Shown here in pieces: positions 13,183 through 23,774 of a stretch of DNA of 64,000 nucleotides. A program made the translations under genes and the position numbers. Source of the DNA: Polyangium spumosum (GTDB taxonomy: Bacteria; Myxococcota_A; Polyangia; Polyangiales; Polyangiaceae). The stretch covers positions 434,001 through 498,000 of the forward strand of contig NZ_WJIE01000006.1 of NCBI RefSeq assembly GCF_009649845.1, in the 5' to 3' direction. A model generated the notes under the pieces. That model was given only the letters and a program-made list of their open reading frames with translations, ran no database searches and had not been told where the DNA came from. Position 1 is the first letter of the stretch. Every line of letters starts with the position of its first letter.

Positions 13183-16100
13183 ATGGTGACCGACGTTCCC
13201 CTGTCGCTGGGTGTCTTCACGGCCGCGCGCCGGATCGGGCGGGGCGGCAGCGGCGAAGCGTGGCTCGGGCAGCACAGGCCCTCGGGCGCGGACGTGGTGC
13301 TCAAGATCCCGCACGCGCCCGCCGGGGGCGAAGCCGCGGCCTTCCGGCGCATCCAGGCCGAGGCGGCCATCGCCTCCGAGGTCACGGGCCCCCACGTGCT
13401 CGGCGTGCTCGACTTCGGGCGCGTCACGCCCGCCGAGTCCGCGGCCTCGCGCACGCGCCTGCTCGCGGGACAACCCTACCTGGTCCTGCCCTACGCCTCG
13501 CTCGGCTCGCTCGCGGGGTACGTCGGGCGCTTGCCGTTCGAGGCCACGCGCGTGGTGCTGCTCGACGTCCTGCGTGGGCTCTCGACCCTGCACGCGCGCG
13601 AGGTCGTCCACCGCGACATCAAGCCCGCCAACGTGCTGCTGTTCCTCCCCGAGGGCCCGCTCTCCATCCGCGCCGTCGTCGCGGATCTCGGGTTCGCCCT
13701 CGTCCCGCGGAGGACCGAGCCGCTCGGCGCGCGGGGCGGCACGCCCGGCTACATGGCTCCGGAGCAACACACGGGCCGCCTGCGCGACCTCGGTCCGTGG
13801 ACGGACCTGTACGCCGTGGGGTTGCTCGCCGCGGAGCTCGTCGCGGCGCCCGAGAGGCCACCCGCGTTCGACGCGTGGATCGCGGCGCTCACGGCGGAGG
13901 AGCCCCGCGAGAGGCCCCGGTCGGCCGCGGAGGCGGCGCACTGGCTCGGGGTGATGGGCGGCGCGCCTTCGCTCGTCGCGTCTCCGGCGGAGCGGCGCGC
14001 GCTCGCCGAGGGGATCGCCGCCGCGCGCGCGGCCGCGGCGCCACGCGAGGTGGACGCGGGCGCGCTCGCGACGACCGCCCCCTTCGCCGAGGTGCTCGAC
14101 GTGGCTCCGGCGGGCGAGGCGCCGGGCGGCGCGGGGCGGGCAGCGCGGGGCGCGCGGCCCGTGTTCGTCCCGTCGCTCGTGTTCCTGGACGAACCCCTCC
14201 CGCCGCCGCTGCCGCCGGGCCTCGGCGCGGGCGTGTGTGCGCTCCGCCGTCCGCCGCTCGTGGGGCAACAGGACCTGCGCGCGGCCCTCTGGGAGGCGCT
14301 CACCGAGGCGTGCCGCGCCCGCGCGCCCCGCGGGGTGATCGTGACCGGGCCCGTGGGCGCCGGCAGGAGCCGGCTCGCCGGCTGGCTCGCCGAGTCCGCG
14401 CACGAGCGGCTCGGTGCCCGGACGATCCACGTCGAGGGCCGCGACGGGGACGGGCTCGGCGCGCTCTGGGAGCGTGCCTTCGCCGGCCTCTCGCCCCGTG
14501 GTGGTGCGCGGGTCGCGCCCACCACCGAGGAGCGGCGCGCGGCGCTGCTCGCGTGGCTCGCCGCGCTCGCCGCGGACGCGCTCGCCGTGGTGGTCGTGAT
14601 CGACGACGCCGAGGCCGACCCCGAAGCCGTGGCGCTCGCCGCGGACGCCCTCGACACCCCGGACGGTCGCCTCGGCCCCGTGATGTTCGTCCTCGCCCAG
14701 CGGCCCGAGGCGCGCGCGCCGGCCGCCGCGGCGCTCGCCGCGCTCGGCGCGCGGCCTCGGGTTCGTGCCTGCCCCGTGCCGCCTCTGACGGACGCCGAGA
14801 CCGAGCGCCTGCTCGCCAGCTTCATCGGCTCGGACGAGCGCACGCGCCAGCGTATCGCCGCGCGCGCCGAGGGCAGCCCCCTCTTCGCCTGCCAGCTCGT
14901 GCGGGACTGGGTGCAACGAGGTTTGCTCGTCCCGGCCGCGCGTGGCCTCGCGCTCGCCGGCCCGGAGCCGCCGATCCCCGACTCGCTCGTCGCCCTCTTC
15001 CAGGACGAGCTCTCCGCCGTGCTCGCCGCGCGTGACGAGACCTTCGGCCGCGCCGTCGCCCTCGCCGTCCTGCTCGGCGGCGACGATGGCCGCGGCTGCT
15101 TCTCCCGGGCTTGCGCGCTCGCCGGCGTCTCGCCCCCGCCCGACCTCGCCGAGGTGCTGCTCGACGCCGGCCTCGCCGTCCGCGCCCCGGGGGGCTTCCT
15201 GCTCTCGCACGCCATCGTCTGCGAGGTCGTCGAGCGGCGGCTCGAGGGCGACCCGCAGCTCGCGGCGCTCCACCTCGCGTGCGCCGAGGCGCGGTTCGGC
15301 GCGCGGGGAGCCTGCCGGATGCGGCCTCGCGCGGCGCTCGCGGCGGCGCGCCACTTCGAGCGCGCGGGGGAGCCCGAGCGCGCGATCGAGGCGCTGCAGG
15401 CGACCTCGTTCGTGGACCAGGGCGCCGCCGACGCGGCCGCGATGCTCGACCTCCTCGACGGGCTCGTGTCGCGGCTCGCCGCGCGGCCTCGGGCCCTGCC
15501 TGCCTTGTGGGCGCTCGCGGCCCGCGCGCATTACCAGCGCGGCGACAGCGCGCAGGCGGAGGCCGCGGCGCGCCGCGCCCTCGCGGCGGACCTCCCGAGC
15601 GACGATCCGCGCGCCCGCTTCGACGCCCTGCTCGCCCTCGGCGCGGCGGCCACGAGCCGCGGCGCCATCGACGAGGCGCTCGCGCTCGCCGACGAGCTCG
15701 AGGCGCTCGCCGCGCGCCTCGGGGATCCCACGGACGCGCTGCTCGCCGCGATGCAACGCGGGCGGGCCGAGTTCGTCGGCTGCCGCCCGGCCGCGTGCCT
15801 CGCCACGGTCGACGCCACCCTCGCGCGGAGCGAGGGCGCCGATCCACGCGTCATCGCCCGCGCGCGCACCGTGGCTGCGGACGCGGCCTTGCTCGCGGGC
15901 CTGCTCGACGATGCGGCGCGGCGCTGCGAGCAGGTCCTCGTGGACCTCGGCGAAGGCGCGGCCGGCCACCTCGCGGCGCACGTGCTGGTCACGCTCGCCG
16001 ACGTCGAGGTGCGCCGGGGCCGCTTCGACGCGGCCATCCAGTGGAGCCGCAAGGCTGCGGCGGCGGCCCATCACCGCGCGCCCGTCGTGGGGTATGCGCG

Positions 16101-16470
16101 GGGCAACGCGGCGTATGCGATGCTGCGCGCCGGGCGCGTCGGGGAGGCGCGGGCCGAGGCCGAAGCGGCCCTCGCCGACTTGCCCGAAGGGCAGCGGCAC
16201 CGGCTCTGGTTTTTCCTCACGGGCCTCTTGCTCCCGTCGCTCGCCGCGGAGGACGACCTCGCCCTCTTCGACGCGCGCTTCGAGGCGTTCGAGGCTTTCT
16301 CCCGGACCACGCAGGTCTCGCTCGTCGAGTGCGCGGAGGCCTTGCGGATGGCCTTGTGGACGCTCGAAGCGCGGGGTGAGGCCTCGCGCGCCGCCGCGGC
16401 CCGCGCGCTCGCCGACGAGCTCTTTCGTCGTCTCGGCCGCGCGGGAGAGGCTAGACTGCCTTCATGCTGA
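13183..16470 (+). CDS. Ser/Thr kinase fused to an AAA-type ATPase and TPR-like region
   Basis: 1095 residues. The kinase (about 12-260) has GRGGSG at 19-24 and HRDIKPANVLL from 143; the magnesium-binding motif reads DLG rather than DFG, which many bacterial kinases tolerate. After a Pro/Ala-rich linker comes an ATPase of the type found in LuxR-MalT/PknK-like proteins, with Walker A GPVGAGRS at 389-396 and Walker B VVVVIDDAEAD. The last 450 residues are Ala/Arg/Leu-rich helices spaced like TPRs (HYQRGDSAQAEAAARRAL, VRRGRFDAAIQWSRKA). This architecture is common in myxobacterial regulators that integrate signals and bind other proteins. The stop codon overlaps the next gene by 7 bases. Confidence 0.9.
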   Translation: MVTDVPLSLGVFTAARRIGRGGSGEAWLGQHRPSGADVVLKIPHAPAGGEAAAFRRIQAEAAIASEVTGPHVLGVLDFGRVTPAESAASRTRLLAGQPYLVLPYASLGSLAGYVGRLPFEATRVVLLDVLRGLSTLHAREVVHRDIKPANVLLFLPEGPLSIRAVVADLGFALVPRRTEPLGARGGTPGYMAPEQHTGRLRDLGPWTDLYAVGLLAAELVAAPERPPAFDAWIAALTAEEPRERPRSAAEAAHWLGVMGGAPSLVASPAERRALAEGIAAARAAAAPREVDAGALATTAPFAEVLDVAPAGEAPGGAGRAARGARPVFVPSLVFLDEPLPPPLPPGLGAGVCALRRPPLVGQQDLRAALWEALTEACRARAPRGVIVTGPVGAGRSRLAGWLAESAHERLGARTIHVEGRDGDGLGALWERAFAGLSPRGGARVAPTTEERRAALLAWLAALAADALAVVVVIDDAEADPEAVALAADALDTPDGRLGPVMFVLAQRPEARAPAAAALAALGARPRVRACPVPPLTDAETERLLASFIGSDERTRQRIAARAEGSPLFACQLVRDWVQRGLLVPAARGLALAGPEPPIPDSLVALFQDELSAVLAARDETFGRAVALAVLLGGDDGRGCFSRACALAGVSPPPDLAEVLLDAGLAVRAPGGFLLSHAIVCEVVERRLEGDPQLAALHLACAEARFGARGACRMRPRAALAAARHFERAGEPERAIEALQATSFVDQGAADAAAMLDLLDGLVSRLAARPRALPALWALAARAHYQRGDSAQAEAAARRALAADLPSDDPRARFDALLALGAAATSRGAIDEALALADELEALAARLGDPTDALLAAMQRGRAEFVGCRPAACLATVDATLARSEGADPRVIARARTVAADAALLAGLLDDAARRCEQVLVDLGEGAAGHLAAHVLVTLADVEVRRGRFDAAIQWSRKAAAAAHHRAPVVGYARGNAAYAMLRAGRVGEARAEAEAALADLPEGQRHRLWFFLTGLLLPSLAAEDDLALFDARFEAFEAFSRTTQVSLVECAEALRMALWTLEARGEASRAAAARALADELFRRLGRAGEARLPSC

Positions 16471-21082: not shown

Positions 21083-21157
21083 GGGGGGCGGCCGCTGGTG
21101 GTTTCCTCGTCAACCACCTTGTCCGGCCGAACTGCCCTCGCCTAGAATGCCCCGCCC

Positions 21158-22561
21158 ATGGGCCACCTCCTGGCCAACACCGAAGATCCGATCGAGGAAG
21201 CAGGCTCCTCCCAGACCGCCGGCGTCCTCGTCTTCGTCCTGCGTTACGAGGACCTCCGCGCGGCCGACTCCGGCGTTTTGCCTCCCCTCACGCAGGACGG
21301 CGACGGCTTCGAGATCGGGCGCGCGCCCGAGGTCCGGCCGCCCGCGTTCGAGGAGACGAGGTTTCTCCTGCCCGATCGATTCGTCTCGCGCCTCCACGCC
21401 CGCGTGGTTCGTCGCGGCGGACGGGATCTCCTCGAGGACGCCGGCAGCAGGCTCGGCACGTTCGTGCGCGGGGAGCGCATCCACGCGCCCGTCCCCCTCG
21501 CCGACGGCGACCTCGTGGAAATCGGGCAATCACTCTTCGTCTATCGGATCGTCGACGCGACGTCCGCGGTCCGGATGATCCGCGGGGGGCTCACGTTTGG
21601 CCCGACACGCTCGTTATGCCCCGAGATCATGCGCCTCGCGCTCGATCTCGGACAGCTCGCGCGTACCGTCGAGCCCATCCTCCTGCTCGCGGAGACCGGC
21701 GCCGGCAAGGAGATCGCCGCGCGATACGTGCACGAAAAGAGCGGACGCGCGGGGCCCTTCGTCGCCATCGATTGTGGCGCCATCCCCGAGCACCTCGTGG
21801 AAGGGGAGCTCTTCGGCCACCGCCGCGGGGCGTTCAGCGGCGCGCACGAGGAGCGCAAGGGCCGCATTCGCAGCGCGGAGGGCGGCACGGTTTTCCTCGA
21901 CGAGATCGGCAATCTGCCCGGGAGCGCGCAGGCGAGCTTGCTCCGCGCGATTCAGGAGCGCGAGGTGACGCCCGTGGGCGCCGATCAGGGGCAGAAGGTG
22001 GACGTGCGATGGATCGCCGCGACGAACGCCGACGTGTTCTCCGAAACGAGCGGCTTTCGCGCGGATCTTCGCGCTCGGCTCGCGGGGTACGTCGCCGAGC
22101 TGCCGCCGCTCCGGGAGCGCCGCGAGGATCTGGGGTTCCTCGTCGCGCACCTGCTCGGCCGGGCGGGCGCCGAGCGAGCCTCGATCACGCCGACGGCGGC
22201 GCGCGCGCTCTTCGGGGGCGACCTGCCGGGCAACGTGCGCGAGCTCGAGCGAGCCCTCGGGACCGCCGTCGTGCTCATGGGCGACGGGCCGATCGACCTG
22301 CCACACCTGAGCGCCCTTCGAGCACGCACGGCGCGGGAGAAGAAGGCGCCGAGCGTCGAGCCGCCCGTCCCCGAGGCGAGCGACGAGGAGCGGCGGAACA
22401 AAAAACGGCCACCCAAGGAGACGATCGAGGCGGCCCTCTTCCGGTCGAAGGGATCCCAAGGGGAGGCGGCGCGTCAGCTCGGGGTGCACGAGCGGCAGCT
22501 CGCGCGGTGGATGGATGCCCTCGGCATCCCCCGGCTGCGGAAGGGCTCTGCGGGCGGGTGA
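21158..22561 (+). CDS. FHA-domain sigma-54-dependent activator with GAFSGA loop
   Basis: 467 residues. An N-terminal FHA domain (about 25-130; IGRAPE, SRLHARVV, GSRLGTFVRGE) is followed by an AAA+ domain with Walker A AETGAGKE at 178-185 and Walker B TVFLDEIGNL. The sigma-54 contact loop reads GAFSGA (224-229) instead of GAFTGA, a conservative Thr-to-Ser change. The LPGNVRELERAL segment follows. The C-terminus holds a Fis-like helix-turn-helix (GSQGEAARQLGVHERQLARW). Immediately downstream are paired perfect palindromes and a sigma-54-like promoter before the gene at 23046, an obvious candidate target. Confidence 0.92.
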   Translation: MGHLLANTEDPIEEAGSSQTAGVLVFVLRYEDLRAADSGVLPPLTQDGDGFEIGRAPEVRPPAFEETRFLLPDRFVSRLHARVVRRGGRDLLEDAGSRLGTFVRGERIHAPVPLADGDLVEIGQSLFVYRIVDATSAVRMIRGGLTFGPTRSLCPEIMRLALDLGQLARTVEPILLLAETGAGKEIAARYVHEKSGRAGPFVAIDCGAIPEHLVEGELFGHRRGAFSGAHEERKGRIRSAEGGTVFLDEIGNLPGSAQASLLRAIQEREVTPVGADQGQKVDVRWIAATNADVFSETSGFRADLRARLAGYVAELPPLRERREDLGFLVAHLLGRAGAERASITPTAARALFGGDLPGNVRELERALGTAVVLMGDGPIDLPHLSALRARTAREKKAPSVEPPVPEASDEERRNKKRPPKETIEAALFRSKGSQGEAARQLGVHERQLARWMDALGIPRLRKGSAGG

Positions 22562-22565
22562 GACG

Positions 22566-22850
22566 AGGTCCCGCGAGGGCGGGGTAGCTCGCGCGAAGGG
22601 CGGGGTGGCTCGCGCCGAGGGCGGGGTGGCTCGCGCCGAGCGCGGGATGGTTCGCGCCGAGGGCGGGATGGCTCGCGCGAAGGGCGGGGTGGCTCGCGCC
22701 GAGGGCGGAGTGGCTCGCGCCGAGGGCGGGATGGCTCGCGCGAAGGGCGGGATGGCTCGCGCCGAGGGCGGGATGGCTCGCACCGAGAGCGGAGGGGCTC
22801 GCGCCGAGGGCGGCGGGGCTCGCGCCGAGGGCGGCGGGGCTCGCTCTCTG
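22566..22850 (+). repeat. 21-bp tandem repeat (minisatellite), about 13 units
   Basis: Units of 21 bp begin with GCTCGC at 22587 and recur every 21 bp through 22839 without a single length change; units at both ends are degenerate. The typical unit is GCTCGCGCCGAGGGCGGGGT plus G. Variation is confined to a few positions (GCC GAG versus GCG AAG, GTG versus ATG), which in one frame would read ARAEGGV/ARAKGGM heptads. There are no spacers, so it is not a CRISPR array. Confidence 0.95.
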
Positions 22851-22858
22851 GGGCCAGA

Positions 22859-22889
22859 TGTCCGGACAAATGGGGGAGATGTCCGGACA
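22859..22889. promoter_or_regulatory. Two identical palindromes TGTCCGGACA, 21 bp apart: likely activator-binding sites
   Basis: TGTCCGGACA is a perfect 10-bp palindrome and occurs at 22859-22868 and 22880-22889, each within the longer match AGATGTCCGGACAA. The 21-bp spacing places both on the same face of the helix. They lie about 116 and 137 bp upstream of the start site predicted from the sigma-54-like promoter at 22975, the usual distance for enhancer sites of sigma-54 activators, one of which is encoded just upstream. Binding by that protein is inference. Confidence 0.6.
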
Positions 22890-22974
22890 AGTTTCCTCCA
22901 TCCGACCGGACCTGCGGGCATCGCGCTCTGTGGCTCACGCTTGATTTCCCACGTTTGCCCTCGCTGTCCCCTCC

Positions 22975-22990
22975 TGGCATTCCTCGTGCA
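22975..22990 (+). promoter_or_regulatory. Sigma-54-like promoter upstream of the gene at 23046
   Basis: TGGCATTCCTCGTGCA matches the -24/-12 consensus in its essential parts: TGGCA, then TGCA, with GG and GC at the required spacing. It predicts transcription from about 23001 and a 45-base leader before the ATG at 23046. The match outside the invariant bases is partial (T at the sixth position, G before TGC). Confidence 0.45.
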
Positions 22991-23045
22991 TTGCCTCGCG
23001 CCCGACGCGCCACGCACCCCCAGGCGCGTCGAGAGAGGAATCGTC

Positions 23046-23774
23046 ATGACTGCGACCCTGATCGTGAAGGACACGTTGCCCCGGAAGAACTTCATCGCCA
23101 TCACGCAGCTCGGCCTCAAGGCCTTGAACCTCGCGTTCACGTACGCCGTGGCGCTCGGCCCGCGGCTGCCGCAGGGGATGGTCGAGGACCTTTCGCTCGA
23201 CATCGAGATCCTCGGCGAGGTCGTTCCCAGCGCGATCCAGGCGCGGAGCGAGTCGGTGGCCGCCACGAGCACGCAAGATACCGCGCTCGCCCAGGGGCAC
23301 ACGCGCGTGCGGCAGATCCGCGCCGCCATCCGCCGCACCATGGCGCCCGAGGACGTGAAACGCGGTTATGGCGTGGGGCGAAGGGCGCGAAAGGAGAGCG
23401 TGGCCCACGTGAAAGCCGCCATTCAGCAGATCCTCGACCGTGCCAAGAACAACCCGGCCGAGGCCGCGTCGCTCGGGATCGTGCAGAAGGACCTCGACAA
23501 CCTCGCGCTCTCGCTCGCCGCCATCACGGACGCCGATACCGTGCAGGAGAAAAAACGCGCGAGCGCGCCGCTCACGACGCAGGAGAGGAACCGGGTCGGA
23601 AACCGGATCCTGGCGGCCGTCGCGCGCATCGAGGCCGCCGGACGGCTCGAGTTCGCGAACGACGACACGAAACGCGCGAGCTTCGAGGCGCTCGGCGCAG
23701 GGCCGAGGATGCGGCGAAAGGCCGTCGCGGAGGAGCCGGCAGGGGACGAGGAGCAGGCGGTGATGGCCGGATAA
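23046..23774 (+). CDS. Unrecognised all-helical protein
   Basis: 242 residues from the ATG at 23046, preceded by GAGAGGAA; the open frame continues upstream only through the minisatellite. I do not recognise a family. The protein has no signal peptide or membrane segment and looks like a series of amphipathic helices (LPRKNFIAITQLGLKALNL, VAHVKAAIQQILDRAKNN, RVGNRILAAVARIEAAG) with a basic patch (RGYGVGRRARKE) and an acidic, disordered tail (AEEPAGDEEQAV). It is cytoplasmic and may bind nucleic acid or protein. Its promoter region suggests control by sigma-54 and the neighbouring FHA activator. Confidence 0.75.
   Translation: MTATLIVKDTLPRKNFIAITQLGLKALNLAFTYAVALGPRLPQGMVEDLSLDIEILGEVVPSAIQARSESVAATSTQDTALAQGHTRVRQIRAAIRRTMAPEDVKRGYGVGRRARKESVAHVKAAIQQILDRAKNNPAEAASLGIVQKDLDNLALSLAAITDADTVQEKKRASAPLTTQERNRVGNRILAAVARIEAAGRLEFANDDTKRASFEALGAGPRMRRKAVAEEPAGDEEQAVMAG

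Follow-up and report, generated by a model that had tools for sequence, protein, structure and literature searches.

Myxobacteria carry many enhancer-binding proteins (EBPs) of the FHA type, and those of Myxococcus xanthus were reportedly described by Jelsbak, Givskov and Kaiser in 2005 as sigma-54-dependent regulators with the layout FHA - AAA+ - Fis-type helix-turn-helix (HTH). For most FHA-type EBPs of myxobacteria, we know of no assigned DNA site or target genes. The analysis presented here concerns a locus of Polyangium spumosum, contained in a stretch of 64,000 nucleotides (the window; contig NZ_WJIE01000006.1, positions 434,001 to 498,000 of the forward strand), that comprises a gene for an FHA-type EBP, two copies of the 10-bp palindrome TGTCCGGACA (the dyads), a predicted sigma-54 promoter and a gene for an all-helical protein (the target). 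Comparison of sequences makes it very likely that the EBP and sigma-54 govern a small regulon, in which the EBP, acting through TGTCCGGACA/GGACA sites, activates the target, and the EBP or a close paralogue activates several unlinked genes.

A regulon of a related kind is that of Nla28 of M. xanthus, for which the accessible part of PMC7910581 gives the half-site CT(C/G)CG(C/G)AG and natural-product loci as targets. The general kind of switch is known, and its DNA word and gene set in Polyangium appear to be new. Among the literature matches listed for the TGTCCGGACA string, none has a bacterial subject and most are, by title, about p53-family proteins; neither a Polyangium sigma-54 regulon nor 21-bp arrays appear in the titles or abstract openings of the matches listed in a search that left most subscription papers outside its reach. 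Polyangia are mentioned in the accessible part of PMC12316311 only for enriched gene categories.

The activator and its candidate binding sites

The window EBP combines an FHA domain (PF00498, E 7.3e-13, residues 53-123, 49.2 bits against a cut-off of 20.7), a AAA+ domain (PF00158 Sigma54_activat, E 2.5e-49, residues 159-309, 167.6 bits against 20.2), the lid domain PF25601 and an HTH (PF02954 HTH_8, E 7.6e-06, residues 420-452, 26.0 bits against 22). The sigma-54 AAA+ domain, the variant GAFTGA loop and the C-terminal Fis-type HTH place it among the EBPs of the NtrC/NifA type, and the N-terminal FHA domain, with the motifs IGRA and SRLHA present, among those of the FHA type. These motifs contain what we take to be the phosphate-binding Arg and Ser; the usual N of the FHA motif NGT is replaced by L or F (e.g. 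SRLGT) in the EBPs of the window type. Serine should be functionally tolerated at the variable position of the GAFTGA loop. The first-pass annotation had noted GAFSGA in place of GAFTGA in this activator, and the variant is indeed present, in 11/11 EBPs of the window type and of the C24 type described below, but it is not peculiar to them: among the 33 best-matching EBP loci, which do not represent all EBPs of the genomes, 16 have GAFSGA, 10 GAFTGA and two GSFTGA, and five do not match the pattern. Each of the six genomes of the genus that were searched, the own genome (G000) included, encodes one Sigma54_DBD protein.

The same annotation had read the locus as a circuit of FHA/AAA+ activator, dyad pair, promoter and helical-protein gene, and all of these elements lie where it placed them. 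The two palindromes are identical and start 21 bp apart, at 22859 and 22880, and the promoter, put at about 86-116 bp from them, begins 116 bp after the start of dyad 1, with 85 bases separating it from the end of dyad 2. This promoter, TGGCATTCCTCGTGCA, shows GG-N10-GC in the TGGCAy..TTGC context, with G replacing the first T of TTGC. Within the window neither kind of signal goes beyond chance (TGTCCGGACA at no more than one mismatch: 3 found, 1.74 expected; promoter-like pattern at no more than two mismatches: 13 found, 13.6 expected); window statistics are therefore insufficient for the promoter and the single dyads, and the case rests on comparison. In the own genome (10.76 Mb), TGTCCGGACA occurs exactly at 11 places, four of which make up two pairs with a spacing of 21 bp each; the search for further pairs that the annotation had suggested thus returned a second one, at G000:C24, beside a paralogous EBP. 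Across 108 genomes of the family, the pair TGTCCGGACA-N11-TGTCCGGACA is found at five places and the reversed control pattern at none, and each of the five exact pairs has an EBP of this subfamily as its immediate neighbour and is accompanied by a -24/-12 promoter.

The C24 paralogue is 66-68% identical to the window EBP, with an HTH that is nearly the same; both read GVHERQLxRWMDAxGIPR, and most other EBPs compared read GK.R.Q(V/I).RW at this position, from which the window, C24 and C34 EBPs differ. Its dyads (G000:C24:74246/74267, 21 bp apart) stand between the divergent EBP gene and a GDSL-lipase-like gene, which is preceded by the -24/-12-type promoter TGGCACGAGCGTTGCG at a distance of 92 bp from the first dyad. 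The orthologues in G056, G061 and G062 retain both pair and promoter, as does that in G014 with one-mismatch sites; the genus search did not find a C24 EBP orthologue in G060. A third EBP (L204, G000:C34:20923-22293), the sole match above 50% identity in the genus search outside the window and C24 groups, is 56% identical to the window EBP and has the same HTH and a GAFTGA loop. Its stop codon is directly followed by a run of ten GGAC(A/G) units, one every 11 bp, and then by CGGCCCGGCTCTTGCA, a -24/-12 match of lower quality, and a lipoprotein-like gene (both read by eye). Each of the three own-genome EBPs that carry this HTH is accompanied by dyads or GGAC repeats nearby. Since the three share one DNA word, crosstalk among them would be expected. 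No TGTCCGGACA at up to one mismatch was found at L074 and L081, the EBP loci with a different HTH that were scanned.

Orthologues of the window EBP, 78-79% identical, are present in 5/5 other genomes of the genus, and the EBP adjoins the target in 6/6; except at L040, the aligned loci also have flavin-reductase and Usp genes beyond the target. In an alignment of the 260 bp upstream of the target at seven loci from the six genomes, the main conserved islands are TGTC(C/T)GGACA, another GGACAA some 20-21 bp beyond it, TGGCATTC..TGCA and the ribosome-binding site, with shorter scattered matches elsewhere. In the window-type orthologues, instead of a second dyad there are half-matching copies, two or three in number, that recur every 10-11 bp. 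The promoter island, TGGCATTC(C/T)(T/G)C(G/A)TGCA, with single-base differences among the seven aligned loci, bears on the alternative that target transcription starts at a sigma-70-type promoter or continues from the EBP gene, the -24/-12 match being fortuitous. Such an explanation could draw on the chance-level count of promoter-like patterns in the window and on TTGACA, noted by eye upstream of 8 of the 11 distant homologues outside the family (L156-L158, L167, L168, L172-L174); given the island and the recurrence of this type of promoter, 68-105 bp upstream of the ATG, at paralogues and at genes presumably regulated in trans, it is considered highly unlikely. The paralogous pair with its promoter, the C34 repeats and the conservation at seven loci argue well for the enhancer-dependent activation of the gene at 23046 through the dyads that the first-pass annotation had put forward.

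Sites upstream of unlinked genes

A further pattern searched for was the triplet, three GGACA at 10-11-bp steps. In the six genomes this pattern gives 22 matches at 16 distinct places, and its reversed control none; the places comprise six target loci, seven loci of a family of 165-aa proteins (R1) and three of a related family of 166-aa proteins (R2), both families being of unknown function. R1 is present in 6/6 genomes of the genus, and R2 proteins are 38-39% identical to R1 proteins; homology of the target to either was tried and is not supported (hhalign probability 0.3%, with shallow alignments). In the own genome, R1 is found at C5:200108 and R2 at C3:393376; loci of the two families are L004:3009-3936, L002:2977-3989 and relatives among L208-L228. 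A strict sigma-54 promoter followed by an open reading frame (ORF) lies downstream at 14 of the 16 triplet places, compared with 18 of 4000 positions drawn at random from 800 kb of control DNA, which contains the triplet itself once, at the R1 locus of G014. Of the two places that fail, L037 has the promoter TGGCATTCCTCATGCA, one base outside the strict pattern, and L228, an R1 locus whose gene is encoded on the opposite strand, has the promoter TGGCATCCCCCTTGCA 153 bp away on the other strand. No EBP match was obtained in the 19-kb stretches around R1 and R2 of the own genome, or within the 3-kb stretches checked at the R1 and R2 loci of other genomes. A second target copy of P. fumosum (L040) has the same sites and promoter as the window-type loci, likewise with no EBP match in the surrounding 19 kb (L205). 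The circuit can thus no longer be called self-contained, as it was in the first-pass annotation, with the same sites standing upstream of sigma-54 promoters of unlinked genes and of this second copy.

The TGTCCGGACA/GGACA sites could instead serve a different, unlinked regulator, with the neighbouring EBP reading another sequence. The R1 and R2 sites, with no EBP in the fetched stretches, and the five exact dyads away from any strict sigma-54 promoter would be compatible with such a regulator, whereas the confinement of the exact pair to the vicinity of this EBP subfamily (5/5), the local dyads or GGAC repeats at all three own-genome EBPs with the shared HTH, the sigma-54 promoter and gene beside the triplet at 16/16 places and the lack of the site at the two scanned loci with a different HTH all speak for recognition by the EBP and its close paralogues. 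The unlinked regulator is therefore regarded as unlikely.

The distance from the first dyad to the promoter is 116-147 bp at the target loci and 92-93 bp at the C24 loci, and that from the first GGACA of the triplet is 317-329 bp at R1 and 414-425 bp at R2, the latter two being well beyond the 80-150 bp that the accessible part of PMC7910581 gives as the usual distance. Helical phasing, claimed in the first-pass annotation, was assessed by the Rayleigh test at 10.5 bp (six target values, R 0.74, p 0.03; R1, p 0.02; R2, p 0.04); because all tested sequences are related, these values argue for it weakly.

Several points weigh against the regulon as outlined here. The first-site-to-promoter distances are spread over 92 to 425 bp. 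When both strands are searched to 600 bp, a strict promoter is missing at five of the 11 exact copies of TGTCCGGACA in the own genome, none of these five belonging to the pairs, R1 or R2, and the window-type orthologues have a half-matching second copy at +20 or +21 and no second exact dyad. The strict promoter pattern was drawn up with several of the promoters already in view, a loose version is passed by 206/4000 random positions, and the weak -24/-12 match at the C34 EBP failed the automatic test for promoter and ORF. The six genomes represent one genus, so the conservation counts are not independent. Finally, structure modelling and family searches leave the role of the target unassigned.

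Tandem arrays and the target protein

Between the EBP gene and the dyads, the window contains a 21-bp tandem array (22574-22844) that is absent from the first-pass annotation. Arrays were examined there and at L010, L011, L013-L017, L020-L022, L037-L048 and L169; the weak or partial matches L018, L019 and L023, none of which has such an array close upstream, were excluded from the count. Tandem Repeats Finder (TRF) detects a period-21 array of at least four copies upstream of 17 of the 18 full-length target loci of the family, the weakest being L021 (4.0 copies); the eighteenth locus, L011, has 2.3 copies. The 11 homologues from outside the family (the fragment G128:C113 left out) have no array adjoining the gene, with three copies 0.9 kb upstream at L155. 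Period-21 arrays of at least 80 bp number five in 464 kb of the own genome (including that of the window) and two in 400 kb of G014, so that the association of arrays with the target is far above background. Array units are alike within a lineage and mostly unlike between lineages, with a constant period. At the R2 loci, the array is located between site and promoter. In the target copies of a second type (L010, L043, L044, L169), the array ends 4-12 bp before the sigma-54 promoter and there is no GGACA repeat; no EBP match was found in the stretches checked for such copies (L024, L043, L044). Period-21 arrays also occur away from target homologues in Polyangium genomes (L133-L139, L141; L095:18683-18947; L202:1657-2042).

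Three explanations of the arrays were tried and rejected. A common motif was sought in 17 arrays in all rotations and on both strands, and the 115 cross-group pairs gave a mean z of 0.22 in sense and 0.42 in antisense orientation; some single antisense pairs reached z 3 to 7 but are not trusted, as the null ignores strand composition. Arrays specific to the target family are contradicted by related arrays at seven other places of the own genome (E below 1e-20). Coding of heptad peptides in frame with the target is contradicted by in-frame extensions that end short of the array in L011, L013, L017 and L022, and by the position of promoter and ribosome-binding site between array and gene, although in the window the open frame does run through the array.

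With a dyad spacing equal to the array period, the array itself might act as the enhancer, the dyads being chance units that share its 21-bp register, and the target copies of the second type would agree with this. The array units, however, differ between lineages without a common motif, whereas the GGACA sites are conserved, and the dyad pair itself is the only period-21 array that TRF detects close to the promoter of the C24 loci L001 and L206, which makes an array enhancer decidedly unlikely in comparison with the dyads and GGACA sites as the bound elements. Because period (two helical turns) and position are kept while the sequence drifts, the arrays might form a working part of the promoter, serving through length and phase as a boundary or as a looping spacer that can be tuned, and not through a sequence motif; this suggestion is tentative and rather doubtful.

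The window target protein has no Pfam match, and the other family members show only scattered matches above E 0.02. Its AlphaFold2 model consists of nine helices and no strand, with low-confidence ends (mean predicted local distance difference test score 79.3, predicted template modelling score 0.52), and Foldseek searches of this model against PDB and viral structures returned no match with E of 0.001 or below. A phage origin is not supported, with no PHROGs match for three of four homologues, three matches of E above 0.1 for the fourth and a best viral Foldseek E of 0.096. The protein shows a weak profile likeness to the PQLLE family (NCBIfam NF052641 PQLLE_fam; E 8.3e-4), its 19.1 bits being far below the curated cut-off of 80; the best match, the C3 paralogue (E 2.7e-7, profile positions 58-208 of 211), also stays below it with 32.7 bits. 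A lax search with this profile returned the three target paralogues alone in the own genome and matched 4/14 control genomes, also below the cut-off; a literature search found nothing on PQLLE. The target belongs to a rare family, with homologues at E of 1e-5 or below in 15/289 genomes of the class; the named relatives of the gene come from Polyangium species, Minicystis rosea, a Byssovorax metagenome-assembled genome (MAG) and one groundwater MAG. Elsewhere in the class, target homologues reach up to five copies per genome (G128).

Proposed mechanism and comparison with known systems

Table 1. Features of the EBP-target locus, in window coordinates.
Feature	Position	Strand	Remarks
Possible sigma-70-type promoter of the EBP gene, TTGTCC - 18 bp - TAGAAT	21119..21148	+	predicted from sequence
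EBP gene	21158..22561	+	467 aa; Pfam domains FHA, Sigma54_activat, AAA_lid_14, HTH_8
GAFSGA-loop codons (canonical GAFTGA)	21827..21844	+	EBP translation
Fis-type HTH of the EBP, GVHERQLARWMDALGIPR	22415..22513	+	Pfam and paralogue comparison
21-bp tandem array, 12.9 copies, unit CGAGGGCGGGGTGGCTCGCGC	22574..22844	+	between EBP gene and dyads
Dyad 1, TGTCCGGACA, putative EBP site	22859..22868	.	sequence match, counts, alignment
Dyad 2, TGTCCGGACA, putative EBP site	22880..22889	.	21 bp from dyad 1, start to start
Predicted sigma-54 -24/-12 promoter, TGGCATTCCTCGTGCA	22975..22990	+	GG 22976-22977, GC 22988-22989; conserved
Ribosome-binding site, GAGAGAGGA	23031..23039	+	conserved in upstream alignment
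Target gene, 242-aa all-helical protein of unknown function, ATG 23046	23046..23774	+	ORF and predicted structure

Taken together, these features are consistent with a mechanism in which the Fis-like HTH of the EBP would bind GGACA-centred 10-bp sites, the full dyad being TGTCCGGACA. As the sites recur at 10-11 or 20-21 bp, they would lie on roughly one face of the DNA, and the EBP may assemble there. DNA looping would bring the assembly to the sigma-54 polymerase at the promoter (22975-22990), where the AAA+ ring with its GAFSGA loop would remodel the sigma-54 RNA polymerase, and ATP-driven opening would switch on the target gene. The FHA domain presumably responds to phospho-threonine generated by a Ser/Thr kinase. 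The window encodes a kinase-AAA-TPR protein (13183-16470), to which no match was found in the fetched orthologue neighbourhoods, which span part of that distance; a search, with the remaining ORFs read by eye, gave no kinase match in the fetched orthologue stretches. The same EBP, or one of its two close paralogues, would act in trans on at least two unlinked promoters of the own genome, those of R1 and R2. For the EBP gene itself, the hexamer TAGAAT (21143-21148) is part of the conserved CGCCTAGRATGC shortly upstream of the start codon, which is found in four of the five orthologue upstream regions compared and not in L037; its position suggests a sigma-70-type, almost leaderless EBP transcript.

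By comparison of sequences alone, one FHA-EBP subfamily can thus be given a candidate DNA word (TGTCCGGACA/GGACA at 10-11-bp steps) and a small predicted regulon, whose genes are of unknown function or secreted-looking, and a binding-site code for FHA-type EBPs becomes directly testable. The Polyangium system resembles the FHA-type EBPs of M. xanthus in the layout FHA - AAA+ - Fis-type HTH and in sigma-54 dependence, and differs from them by the TGTCCGGACA/GGACA word, the GAFSGA loop and targets of unknown function. As far as the accessible part of PMC7910581 goes, it is like the Nla28 regulon in that one EBP appears to use repeated half-sites before several -24/-12 promoters at several loci, and unlike it in that both the half-site and the gene set are different in Polyangium.

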